Shown piece by piece: positions 2,850 through 7,001 of a stretch of DNA of 64,000 bases. Where the stretch lies: the NCBI GenBank assembly GCA_947466085.1, contig CANIEC010000004.1, positions 1 through 64,000 on the forward strand. The letters are read 5' to 3'. A program made the translations under genes and the position numbers. Within the stretch, counting starts at the first letter, position 1. Each line of letters starts with the position of its first letter. The notes beneath the pieces are model-generated. The model was given only the letters and a program-made list of their open reading frames with translations, was not told the origin of the DNA and searched no databases. The DNA is from Rhodospirillales bacterium. Lineage in GTDB: Bacteria; Pseudomonadota; Alphaproteobacteria; Reyranellales; Reyranellaceae.

Positions 2850-4043
2850 CTAAACGACCAGGGCGCTGCGCATCTCGGCGATGTCGGCGTCGGAATAGCC
2901 GGCTTCCTTCAGCACCTCGTCGGTGTGCTGGCCGAGCGTCGCCGGCGGGCGGTCGATCGACCCGCCGCCATGTTCCAGTCGGAAGCCCGAGCCCACGACC
3001 TTGATGGGACCGTGCTCGGTCTCGACGGTCTGCAGCACGGTGCGGTGCTTGAACAGGTCGAGCTGCGCGGTCTCCGGGATGCTGTGCACGCGGCCGGCCG
3101 GCACGTCGGCCTTGGCGAAGCGCTCGATCCAGGTGGCAGAGTCCTCGGTCTTCATCGCGCCTTCGACGATCTCGTGGAGCGCGGTGTTGTTGGCGATGCG
3201 CGTGCCCCAGTCGACGAAGCGCGGATCGGCCAGCACCTCCTCGCGGCCCAGCACCTTCATCAGGCGCTTGAACTGCGGATCGGTCATGACGGCCAGCACG
3301 ATCCAGCCGTCGCGGGTCTTGAAGAGATTGCCCGTGGGCTTGCGCGTCACCGACAGGTTGGCGGCCTGGCCGTGAACGCGGCCGGTCATCAGGTGCTCGG
3401 TGAACTGCTGGGCGAGATAGCCCATCACCGAGTCGATCATGGCGACGTCGACGAGCTGGCCCGTGCCGGTGTGCGTCCGCTGATACAGGGCCGAGGCGAT
3501 GCCCAGCGCCGCCGTCGCGCCCGACATCACGTCGGCGCCGGCGAAGCCCACCCGCGTGGGGCCGTTGTTCTCGAAGCCGGTGATCGACATCAGGCCGGAC
3601 ATGGCCTGGATCATGCCGTCGAAGGCCGCGGTCTTGGACTCAGGGCCGACCTGGCCGAAGCCCGACACGGCACAGTAGATCAGCCGGGGATTGATCTTCT
3701 TCAGCGTCTCGTAGCCGATGCCGAGCTTGTCCATCACGCCGGGGCGGAAGTTCTCGACGACCACGTCGGCCGTCTCGACCAGGCGTTTGACGACCTCGAT
3801 CGCCTTGGGCTGCTTGAGGTCCAGCGTGATCGAGCGCTTGTTGCCGTTCACCGCGACCCAGGGCGCCGCCAGGCCGCGCTTCTCCCAGTCGTTGGAGCGA
3901 GTGCCGAAGCGCATGTCGTCGCCTTCGCGCGATTCGATCTTGACCACGTCGGCACCGAGCAGGGCGAGCTGGTAGGAGCTGTAGGGCCCGGCCAGCACAC
4001 GCGTGAAATCGACGACCTTTACGCCCTTGAACGGCTTGCTCAT
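2850..4043 (-). CDS. CaiB/BaiF family CoA-transferase
   Basis: A 397-residue class III CoA-transferase, the family that moves CoA between carboxylic acids (formyl-CoA:oxalate, carnitine, succinyl-CoA users). N-terminal block VVDFTRVLAGPYSSYQLALLGADVVKIE (split: 10-20, 21-37), then NFRPGVMDKLG (98-108), and the putative catalytic aspartate Asp171 in GFAGADVMSG. Length is normal. It starts 7 bases after the stop of the selenoprotein gene upstream on the same strand, so the two are probably co-transcribed. The acyl substrate is unknown; no decarboxylase or ligase partner is adjacent. Confidence 0.92.
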   Translation of the reverse strand: MSKPFKGVKVVDFTRVLAGPYSSYQLALLGADVVKIESREGDDMRFGTRSNDWEKRGLAAPWVAVNGNKRSITLDLKQPKAIEVVKRLVETADVVVENFRPGVMDKLGIGYETLKKINPRLIYCAVSGFGQVGPESKTAAFDGMIQAMSGLMSITGFENNGPTRVGFAGADVMSGATAALGIASALYQRTHTGTGQLVDVAMIDSVMGYLAQQFTEHLMTGRVHGQAANLSVTRKPTGNLFKTRDGWIVLAVMTDPQFKRLMKVLGREEVLADPRFVDWGTRIANNTALHEIVEGAMKTEDSATWIERFAKADVPAGRVHSIPETAQLDLFKHRTVLQTVETEHGPIKVVGSGFRLEHGGGSIDRPPATLGQHTDEVLKEAGYSDADIAEMRSALVV

Positions 4044-4050
4044 GTCACTC

Positions 4051-4977
4051 CTACGCCACGCCCGCCTGCTTGCGCTGGCTGAGCGCGACCTGCTTCACCT
4101 TGTCGAATTCGGCCCGCCGCTTGGCGACCTCTTCGGGCGGCATGCGCTCGAGATTGTTGTAGTCGTTCTTCCAGTCCCCGTCGGCGGTCCAGCGCAGCGG
4201 CGACTGAACCGTCGTGCGCGGACCGATGGCGCTCTCCAGCACCTTCAGCGCCAGATCGAGCGTGAAGCGCTGGGTGTCGGGCTCGTGCGGCTTGCCGCAG
4301 GAATTGCCCAGCGGGAAATCGCTGAACAGGAACCGGGGCACGCCCGTCCATTCGACGATGTCCTTCGCCGCCCCCATCACCACGGTGGGGATGCCGTTCC
4401 GTTCGAGGTATCGTGCGACCAGACTCACGGTCTGGTGACAGACGGGTCATGTAGGGACGAGCAGCGCGGCATCGACCTGGTCCTGGCGGCAGCGGGCCAG
4501 GATCTCGGGCGCATCGGTCTCCAGGGTCACGCGCTGGCTGCGATTGGTCGGCGCGCCGTGGAACCGCGCCGCCAGCTTGAAGCGGCCCTGGCTGGCGAAC
4601 TCGCGCATCAGCGGCAGCGGGAACCAGGTGTTGCTGTCCTTCGCCGTCGTGTGCTTGCGGTCGTAGCCGATATGGGAAATGCGGGTGTCGTGGTCCTGCG
4701 ACGAGTCGCCCGAATAGACCGAATAGAACTTGGCGGCGGCGTTGTAGAGCGCGCCGGGTCCCTGATCGCCCTTGTCCGGCTGGTACGGCGCCGCGGTCGA
4801 GATCAGCGCGAGCGTGCTGTCCTTCAGCGGCTTCGTCAGCGGCGTGAAGGGCGCATCGGTGTAGTGCGCCCAGCGATACGGATTGTCGTAGCCCAGCGCG
4901 AGGTAGTACTCGCGGGTGCGGCGCATGTATTCGAGCGGTGCATCGAATTCTGGCGCAAAATCTATCGTGTCGACCAT
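4051..4977 (-). CDS. Selenoprotein, glycine/sarcosine/betaine/D-proline reductase subunit B-like (in-frame TGA read as Sec)
   Basis: Two same-frame open segments (4977-4450 and 4446-4051) are separated only by one TGA at 4447-4449. Read through, they give one 308-residue protein with Sec at residue 177 in LLVPT-U-PVCHQTVSLVAR. The U-x-x-C pair and the following helix, RYLERNGIPTVVMG, are what the GrdB/PrdB selenoprotein group shows at its redox site, and similarity to that family continues on both sides of the TGA. A SECIS-like hairpin lies just downstream. ATG 4977 starts the conserved part (MVDTIDFAPEF); the frame is open upstream to 5076 but looks non-conserved. Exact reaction unknown: the known family reduces amino-acid derivatives in anaerobes, while the proteobacterial branch is uncharacterised. 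It is co-directional with the CoA-transferase that follows. No selA, selB or tRNA-Sec gene lies in this window. Confidence 0.85.
4418..4449 (-). promoter_or_regulatory. Candidate bacterial SECIS element with Sec UGA codon
   Basis: After the TGA (4449-4447) come 10 bases, then a perfect 7-bp stem ACCAGAC/GTCTGGT (4436-4430 with 4424-4418) closed by the loop CGTGA (4429-4425). The loop begins 17 bases after the UGA and has a G in its first two positions. This agrees with the general description of bacterial SECIS elements: a small apical loop with an early G, roughly 16-37 bases after UGA. SelB-dependent recoding is inferred, not shown. Confidence 0.75.
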
Positions 4978-5147
4978 GGGCGAAAACTGAACCCGCCGTT
5001 GCTCCAAGTCAAATTCGCAGGGCGCCTGACGGCCCTGCACGGAACGCCGGGTGAAGCTGACCCCGATGTAACCCACCGGCCATAGTGCCGCCCAACTCCC
5101 TCGCGCTATATATGAAGCGAGTTCGGACAGGCTGGGGAGCGCATCGC

Positions 5148-7001
5148 ATGGCGATCAGACGGCGCAGCGTATTGGCGGGCAGCGCGGCCCTTTGGGTCGG
5201 CGCGCCGGCGATTCTGCGGGCTCAGACCCCGGCTACGGCGGCCAAGGTCAATGTCAGTCACGGTTTCGCCATGCACGGCGAGCCCAAGTACAAGGCCGAT
5301 GCCGGCCCACCCGACTATCTGAATCCCGGCGCCCCCAAGGGCGGCAGCGTCCGGCTGGGCGCCCGCGGCACCTTCGATTCGCTGCATCCCTTCATCGTGA
5401 AGAGCGTGCCGGCGGCCGGCATCACCCAGATCTGGGACACGCTCTGCTGGAACTCGCGCGACGAGGCCTCGACCGAATACGGGCTGATCGCCGAAACGAT
5501 CGAATGGCCGGACGACCGGTCCTGGGTCGCCTTCAACCTGAGGCCGCAGGCGCGCTGGCACGACGGCAGCCCGATCACCGTCGAGGACGTGATCTTCTCC
5601 CTCGACATCCTGAAGGCGAAGGGCGCGCCCAACTATTCCTTCTACTATCACGACGTCCTGAAGGCGGAGAAAGTCGGCGACCGCAAGGTGCTGTTCACCT
5701 TCCGCGACAGCACCAATAGGGAGCTGCCGCTGATCGTCGGCCAGCTTCCCATCCTGCCCTCCAAATGGTGGGCGAGCCGCGATTTCGAGAAGGTGTCGCT
5801 CGAGATCCCGCTCGGCAGCGGCGCCTACAAGGTCGACGCCTTCGACGTCGGCCGCTCGATCGCCTATCGCCGCGTTCCCGACTGGTGGGCCAAGGACCTC
5901 TGGATGAATCGCGGGCGCAACAATTTCGACGTGCTCCGCTACGAATACTATCGCGACGTGACCGTCCAGTTCGAGGCCTTCAAGGCGGGCGACCTCGACG
6001 TCCGCCAGGAAAACATCGCGCGCAACTGGGCGACGGCCTACGACATTCCGGCGGTGCGCGACGGCCGCATCCAGCGCGCCGAGATTCCGCACGAGCTGCC
6101 GACCGGCATGCAGTGCTTCGCCTTCAACACGCGCCGCGACTACTTCAAGGACAAGCGCGTGCGCGAGGCGATCGCCACCATGTTCGACTTCGCCTGGGCC
6201 AACAAGAATCTGTTCTACGGGATGTACAGGCGCAACGTCTCGTTCTTCGGCAATTCCGAGCTCGCCTCGTCGGGCCTGCCGACGGCGGCGGAGCTGAAGT
6301 ACCTCGAGCCGCTGCGCGGCAAGATTCCCGAGGAGGTCTTCACCAGGGAGTTCATGCTTCCCGAGTCTGATGGCACCGGCAACGTCCGCGATCTGGCGCG
6401 GCGCGCGCTCGCGCTGCTCAAGGAGGCCGGCTGGGAGATCAAGGACGGCAAGATGACGGAGACGAAGACGGGCAAGAAGCTCGCCTTCGAGATGCTCCTG
6501 AACGACGCCAGCTTCGAGAGGGTCGTGCTGCCCTACAAGCAGAACCTCGAGCGCATCGGCATCGACATGAACGTGCGCACGGTCGACACCGCGCAGTTCA
6601 AGCGCCGCGAGGACGAGTTCGACTACGACATGATGGTCGAGGGTTTCGGCCAGTCGCTGTCGCCGGGCAACGAGCAGCGCGACTTCTGGGGCTCGAAGGC
6701 GGCCGACACGCCGGGCAGCCGCAATTCGCTGGGCATCAAGGACGCCGCCATCGATTCGCTGATCGACACGCTGATCGCGGCCCCGGATCGCGAGAGCCTG
6801 ATCGCCGTCACCCGGGCGCTGGACCGCGTGCTGCTCTGGAGCAACTTCGTGGTGCCCAACTGGCACAACAACAAGGTGTTCGTCGCCTACTGGAACCGTT
6901 TCGCCCGTCCGGAGAAGAGCGCCCGCTACGCGCCCTTCGCCTTCGACACCTGGTGGATCGACGAAGCCAAGGACCGCGCCCTTCAGCGCGAGAGGAAGTA
7001 G
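5148..7001 (+). CDS. yejA: Peptide ABC transporter substrate-binding protein (YejA/SBP family 5)
   Basis: A 617-residue periplasmic solute-binding protein of family 5 that delivers oligopeptide-like ligands (microcin C-type in Enterobacteria) to the YejBEF importer. The N-terminus MAIRRRSVLAGSAALW is a likely twin-arginine or Sec signal with cleavage near ILRAQT. Family blocks: HDGSPITVEDVIFSLDIL, NTRRDYFKDKRVREAIA and the late NWHNNKVFVAYW. The ATG at 5148 is preferred to the upstream in-frame start because it has GGGGAG at good spacing and begins at the signal peptide. It is followed by yejB, yejE and yejF, the usual order. Confidence 0.93.
   Translation: MAIRRRSVLAGSAALWVGAPAILRAQTPATAAKVNVSHGFAMHGEPKYKADAGPPDYLNPGAPKGGSVRLGARGTFDSLHPFIVKSVPAAGITQIWDTLCWNSRDEASTEYGLIAETIEWPDDRSWVAFNLRPQARWHDGSPITVEDVIFSLDILKAKGAPNYSFYYHDVLKAEKVGDRKVLFTFRDSTNRELPLIVGQLPILPSKWWASRDFEKVSLEIPLGSGAYKVDAFDVGRSIAYRRVPDWWAKDLWMNRGRNNFDVLRYEYYRDVTVQFEAFKAGDLDVRQENIARNWATAYDIPAVRDGRIQRAEIPHELPTGMQCFAFNTRRDYFKDKRVREAIATMFDFAWANKNLFYGMYRRNVSFFGNSELASSGLPTAAELKYLEPLRGKIPEEVFTREFMLPESDGTGNVRDLARRALALLKEAGWEIKDGKMTETKTGKKLAFEMLLNDASFERVVLPYKQNLERIGIDMNVRTVDTAQFKRREDEFDYDMMVEGFGQSLSPGNEQRDFWGSKAADTPGSRNSLGIKDAAIDSLIDTLIAAPDRESLIAVTRALDRVLLWSNFVVPNWHNNKVFVAYWNRFARPEKSARYAPFAFDTWWIDEAKDRALQRERK

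Follow-up and report, generated by a model that had tools for sequence, protein, structure and literature searches.

A predicted PrdB/GrdB-like selenoprotein gene next to a CoA-transferase gene in Reyranella, and its cysteine-encoding counterparts

The window, i.e., the whole stretch of 64,000 nucleotides analyzed here, originates from a Reyranella MAG of 5.17 Mb (322 contigs, 89.25% complete, 3.9% contaminated). Its closest relatives are members of Reyranella, a soil and water bacterium; most of them are MAGs, and R. massiliensis, R. soli and R. aquatilis are also included. Features of the locus are compiled in Table 1. Translation of the minus strand from 4977 to 4051, with TGA read as selenocysteine (Sec, U), yielded a single frame of 308 amino acids starting with ATG, whose sole internal stop is the TGA at residue 177 within the context LLVPT-U-PVCHQTV. 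The original prediction, according to which two same-frame segments are joined solely by this TGA, was exact to the base, the minus strand being the only detail absent from it. As it had also anticipated for a standard annotation, ORF calling with the ordinary code split the gene into two ORFs, namely 5076..4447 (209 aa) and 4428..4051 (125 aa), both with a GTG start. Homologues being 65–99% identical are full-length across the complete span, and what pipelines would list as two "hypothetical proteins" becomes one conserved enzyme. Elsewhere in the window, a TPP riboswitch was recorded on the minus strand (1114-1243, 69.7 bits).

Table 1. Features of the locus and related genes on other contigs. 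Positions refer to the window unless a locus is named.
Feature	Position	Strand	Basis and remarks
Family III (CaiB/BaiF-type) CoA-transferase gene	2850..4043	-	Pfam CoA_transf_3, 394.7 bits; 7 nt downstream of the selenoprotein gene
Predicted PrdB/GrdB-like selenoprotein gene	4051..4977	-	308 codons + stop, Sec at residue 177, UPVC motif; TGA=U translation and full-length homologues
Bacterial SECIS hairpin	4418..4436	-	7-bp stem, CGTGA loop, 10 nt past TGA; fold, covariation, loss in Cys forms, covariance model
Predicted Sec codon (in-frame TGA)	4447..4449	-	TGA or Cys codon in homologues, no third kind
Divergent gene for a family 5 solute-binding protein, heading an oligopeptide-type ABC transporter set	5085..7001	+	Pfam SBP_bac_5
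Third, longer PrdB-like selenoprotein (predicted)	L134 7111-8283 (contig C105)		C-terminal extension, GC-rich SECIS
AhpD/CMD-family protein, in-frame TGA in GCPF-U-ID	L133 3356-3907 (contig C157); also L140 8383-8934		Pfam CMD, 32 bits

The CoA-transferase gene was found directly downstream in 70 of the 80 homologous loci, for Sec and cysteine (Cys) forms alike; these 70 include 13 of the 20 distant loci (mostly Acetobacteraceae and Rhodospirillaceae). Based on this gene order, the selenoprotein gene and the CoA-transferase gene are presumed to belong to one operon. The transporter set starting with the SBP_bac_5-type gene is usual in Reyranella loci and absent from more distant ones; a functional link between this set and the selenoprotein may exist.

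Comparison of the homologues at the Sec column (80 loci and the window) showed TGA in 59 database loci and in the window, making 60 in total, TGC or TGT in 21 and other codons in none, so that the outcome named beforehand as refuting, a column that never holds Sec or Cys, was absent. From 60 genomes of the same genus, 55 full or near-full orthologues were obtained, 50 of which contain one TGA and five of which are stop-free. Since the TGA-bearing orthologues include those of single-contig genomes, a sequencing error, raised as a further objection to the prediction, is excluded. The TGA-bearing gene occurs in R. massiliensis 521 and R. soli, among others, and the TGA is shared by more distant homologues as well. 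Among the Sec forms, substitutions at the three codon positions amounted to 634, 520 and 2475 before the TGA and to 386, 275 and 1514 after it. This third-position bias on both sides implies that translation continues in frame through the downstream half, and both sides are under purifying selection.

The hairpin following the TGA (4436-4418, ACCAGAC-CGTGA-GTCTGGT) agreed with the original prediction in position, stem length, loop and ten-base spacer. It also has the form of a SECIS element, being located closely 3' of the TGA and carrying an early G in a short loop. RNA folding, suggested as a check, gave a divided result: the hairpin belongs to the minimum-free-energy fold, but the folding energy of its region was unexceptional (z -1.08 and -1.80). 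Folding energy was dropped as proof because these values are too weak, and covariation was used instead. Of the seven stem pairs, 6.9 are kept in Sec forms versus 4.4 in Cys forms. Within Sec forms and paralogues, four of the seven pairs changed on both sides with 96% of cells paired, which was reached in none of 500 shuffles; sliding the partner positions abolished the signal, and the Cys-form control showed no covariation excess in the stem. In the paralogue on contig C105, the helix is mostly swapped to GC pairs, and the loop is kept as CGTGG. Moreover, nearly all Sec forms use AGT for the loop-side serine, a codon representing 2.3% of the serine codons in neighbouring genes. Within the genome, a covariance model of the hairpin had significant matches (E<=2.3e-6) only in the three PrdB-like genes; since these genes are part of the training set, the match shows specificity and is not independent proof. 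Because pairing is kept and covaries in Sec forms and is lost in Cys forms, the hairpin, as judged from sequence comparison, is the SECIS element that it had been predicted to resemble.

The genome was also screened for the selenium machinery, as had been suggested with the original prediction. The tRNA-Sec gene selC (71.5 bits; anticodon tca according to ARAGORN), selB (410 bits) and selA (on two contig ends that overlap, scoring 476 and 461 bits) were present, all above their cut-offs, whereas selD had no match above cut-off in this 89%-complete MAG; among 60 genomes of the genus, 55 carry selD and 57 have selB above its cut-off. The three genes identified are located on short contigs that align to the selA-selB-selC regions of complete genomes of the genus. 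Identity in the overlap of the two selA-bearing ends is 96.8%, and some strain mixture in the MAG is therefore possible. Among the same-genus selD genes, open frames of ~350–420 aa covering the whole model were observed alongside frames of ~750 aa, the latter suggesting a SelD fusion in many Reyranella members.

Considering the column restricted to Sec or Cys, the presence of selA, selB and selC and the conservation of the TGA within the genus, the TGA at codon 177 is almost certainly read as selenocysteine, and the forecast of one 308-residue selenoprotein was borne out to this extent. SelB and Sec-tRNA would decode the UGA, aided by the SECIS hairpin that follows it. A pseudogene or an erroneous sequence, with the TGA ending translation or being miscalled and the 3' half either defunct or initiated on its own, would agree with the two ordinary ORFs and with the fragmented MAG from which the window comes. 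However, an identical TGA in 50 of 55 orthologues, single-contig genomes included, a third-position bias of the downstream half matching that of the upstream half, Cys at this column in the remaining homologues and the covarying SECIS stem leave this explanation with hardly any probability. Suppression or reassignment of UGA, for example to Trp, draws on the fact that the frame is open whichever residue the TGA encodes; it is regarded as extremely improbable, given that the column holds Cys and never Trp in homologues, that tRNA-Sec, SelA and SelB are encoded in the genome and that the SECIS decays where the codon specifies Cys.

Further selenoproteins were predicted for this genome. The formate dehydrogenase alpha subunit contains an in-frame TGA in the context NQARI-U-HGPTV and represents a further selenoenzyme (contigs C253/C278; loci L149, L150 and L132). 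Contig C278 carries both the 3' end of the formate dehydrogenase gene and selA, and its gene order resembles the fdh-selABC arrangement described for alphaproteobacteria. Two further PrdB-like selenoproteins are encoded on contigs C157 and C105; with the Pfam model GRDB, the C105 paralogue scored 36.4 bits and the C157 paralogue remained below the threshold. The AhpD-like gene with its in-frame TGA lies directly upstream of the PrdB-like gene on C157 and occurs in a second genome with 91% identity and the same TGA. Past this TGA, a short inverted repeat (CCAGC-CGTGT-GCTGG) is present, but it is not the minimum-energy fold. Accordingly, Reyranella can be described as a multi-selenoprotein alphaproteobacterium whose set comprises formate dehydrogenase, the three PrdB-like proteins and, probably, the AhpD-like protein. 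In a survey of 2006, formate dehydrogenase was the only selenoprotein then known in alphaproteobacteria (PMC1794560).

The designation as PrdB/GrdB-like held at the superfamily level. The protein marginally passed the gathering cut-off of Pfam PF07355 (GRDB; 24.3 bits versus 22) and is 31% identical over 237 aa to clostridial PrdB, with the Sec column aligned. At the equivalog level it failed: the PrdB model TIGR04483 gave 83 bits versus a cut-off of 300, a clostridial PrdB control reaching 425 bits, and GrdB-type models gave 35–43 bits versus cut-offs of 602–800. No PrdA/GrdE-type gene (PF09338, Gly_reductase) was detected in the own genome or in 60 relatives; the control set of the genome search likewise gave no positive, and the PF09338 model recognizes clostridial PrdA at 80 bits. 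Around the selenoprotein gene, no prd or grd genes were observed. Furthermore, a sequence search of solved structures returned no relative (best match: a designed protein, E 0.031), and viral contigs contained no relative. Because the PrdA/GrdE partner was not found and the PrdB equivalog cut-off was failed, the protein is not classified as a D-proline or glycine reductase; it is a distant PrdB/GrdB homologue and superfamily-level member. A true subunit of D-proline reductase (PrdB) or of glycine/betaine/sarcosine reductase (GrdB) in an aerobe is suggested by the identity to clostridial PrdB, by the GRDB score barely above cut-off and by the naming of such proteins as PrdB in marine surveys (PMC2398784), but is very unlikely in view of the equivalog scores, the lack of a PF09338 gene despite a model that finds clostridial PrdA, and the lack of prd/grd neighbours.

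In an AlphaFold model (mean pLDDT 86.9), U177 is placed between a strand (170-174) and a helix (178-193), and this strand-to-helix-start position is a usual site of a reactive selenolate or thiolate. The UxxC motif, which follows a beta strand and opens a helix, would form a selenolate/thiol redox pair. As a stand-alone relative of PrdB/GrdB, the protein may use thiols to reduce, or to cleave reductively, a small carboxylate or its CoA ester, rather than D-proline or glycine. This role is proposed because the CoA-transferase gene is very probably co-transcribed and the PrdA/GrdE partners are lacking. Based on operon context and motif, such a CoA-linked reductase role, in which the protein would be a thiol-linked oxidoreductase, is advanced tentatively. 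A general thiol/peroxide defence protein using UxxC redox chemistry, functionally unrelated to the neighbouring CoA-transferase, is a rather unlikely alternative. Antioxidant selenoproteins often carry UxxC motifs, and the C157 paralogue adjoins the AhpD-like TGA-containing gene and is located several kb from another CoA-transferase gene, with ~33% identity. The tight linkage to the CoA-transferase in Reyranella, Acetobacteraceae and Rhodospirillaceae, for Sec and Cys forms, and the family likeness to the substrate-reducing PrdB/GrdB proteins argue against it. The fact that the selenoprotein gene and a family III CoA-transferase gene stay together across loci provides a first lead on the job of the abundant non-clostridial PrdB-like selenoproteins.

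Six loci of the Reyranella group encode Cys forms (L094, L096, L097, L104, L105 and L106; gene at 6001-6924). In the protein tree these forms cluster (96/69, or 99/92 for five of the six). The CoA-transferase tree places five of the Cys loci at scattered positions among Sec species, the sixth having no such gene. Forced grouping of the five was rejected (p-AU 1.3e-25), and the PrdB-like data reject a grouping of L096 and L097 with the close relatives of the window (p-AU 7e-5), both p-values serving as guides only, as they originate from quick trees with groups picked after viewing the data. L097 and L051 are 95% identical on both flanks and 83.5% identical inside the gene; for L104 and R. massiliensis, the corresponding values are 93/83/92 (flank/gene/flank). 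Silent-site divergence of the gene versus the adjacent CoA-transferase gene amounted to 36% versus 15% for L097 and 40% versus 25% for L104, and only a small difference of this kind was found for L096 and L106. In-place mutation from Sec to Cys was ruled out for L097 and L104, since silent sites are far more diverged in the gene than in the CoA-transferase gene. Because identity falls inside the gene only, the sequences of these two loci point to replacement of the whole gene by a Cys allele within an otherwise conserved locus. Ancient duplication followed by differential loss is a formally conceivable source of the Cys alleles; against it, no genome of the genus showed two copies at >80% identity. 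All five same-genus genomes with a stop-free orthologue possess selB, and most of them also encode a TGA-containing paralogue.

A wider interpretation can be put forward as possible, though somewhat short of probable: Sec and Cys forms would be interchangeable alleles, exchanged by whole-gene recombination in several lineages of a genus that retains its Sec machinery, with the operon neighbours kept and with shifting selection for Sec or Cys at a single locus, and the gene together with the CoA-transferase gene would encode a carboxylate pathway of alphaproteobacteria that depends on selenium and is as yet undescribed. The occurrence of both allele types at the same locus would represent a natural experiment on the benefit of selenium to an enzyme.

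Selenocysteine-containing PrdB was reported as the third most abundant selenoprotein family in the Sargasso Sea with 42 genes (PMC1088965) and with 235 Sec members in the GOS data (PMC2398784), and it is among the commonest selenoprotein families of surface-ocean metagenomes (PMC1088965, PMC2398784). The RefSeq name of the Cys homologues is 'glycine/sarcosine/betaine reductase selenoprotein B family protein'. The claim that a role in such bacteria had not been described stood insofar as the literature search found no description of the role of a PrdB-like selenoprotein in proteobacteria, nothing about the family name used by RefSeq or about selenoprotein B combined with a CoA-transferase, and no relevant work on Reyranella selenoproteins; novelty is reduced by the marine Sec PrdB sequences and the named Cys homologues. 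PrdB-type selenoproteins were thus already known; what this analysis adds is the assignment to Reyranella, the operon, covariation in the SECIS stem and the exchange of alleles.

With clostridial PrdB (TIGR04483), the Reyranella protein shares the aligned Sec column, the UxxC motif and 31% identity over 237 aa, but it contains ~65 extra residues and fails the equivalog cut-off, and its gene resides in an alphaproteobacterial host next to a CoA-transferase gene and without a detected PrdA partner. It resembles the C-terminal half of GrdB, GrdF and GrdH including the UxxC motif (Pfam GRDB), whereas their N-terminal half is missing and no GrdE-type gene (PF09338) was found. The marine PrdB sequences are metagenome fragments without operon information, unlike the locus described here; as far as can be judged by their description, they are similar in being Sec-containing UxxC proteins under pfam07355 that are abundant in surface water and have Cys homologues (PMC1088965, PMC2398784).
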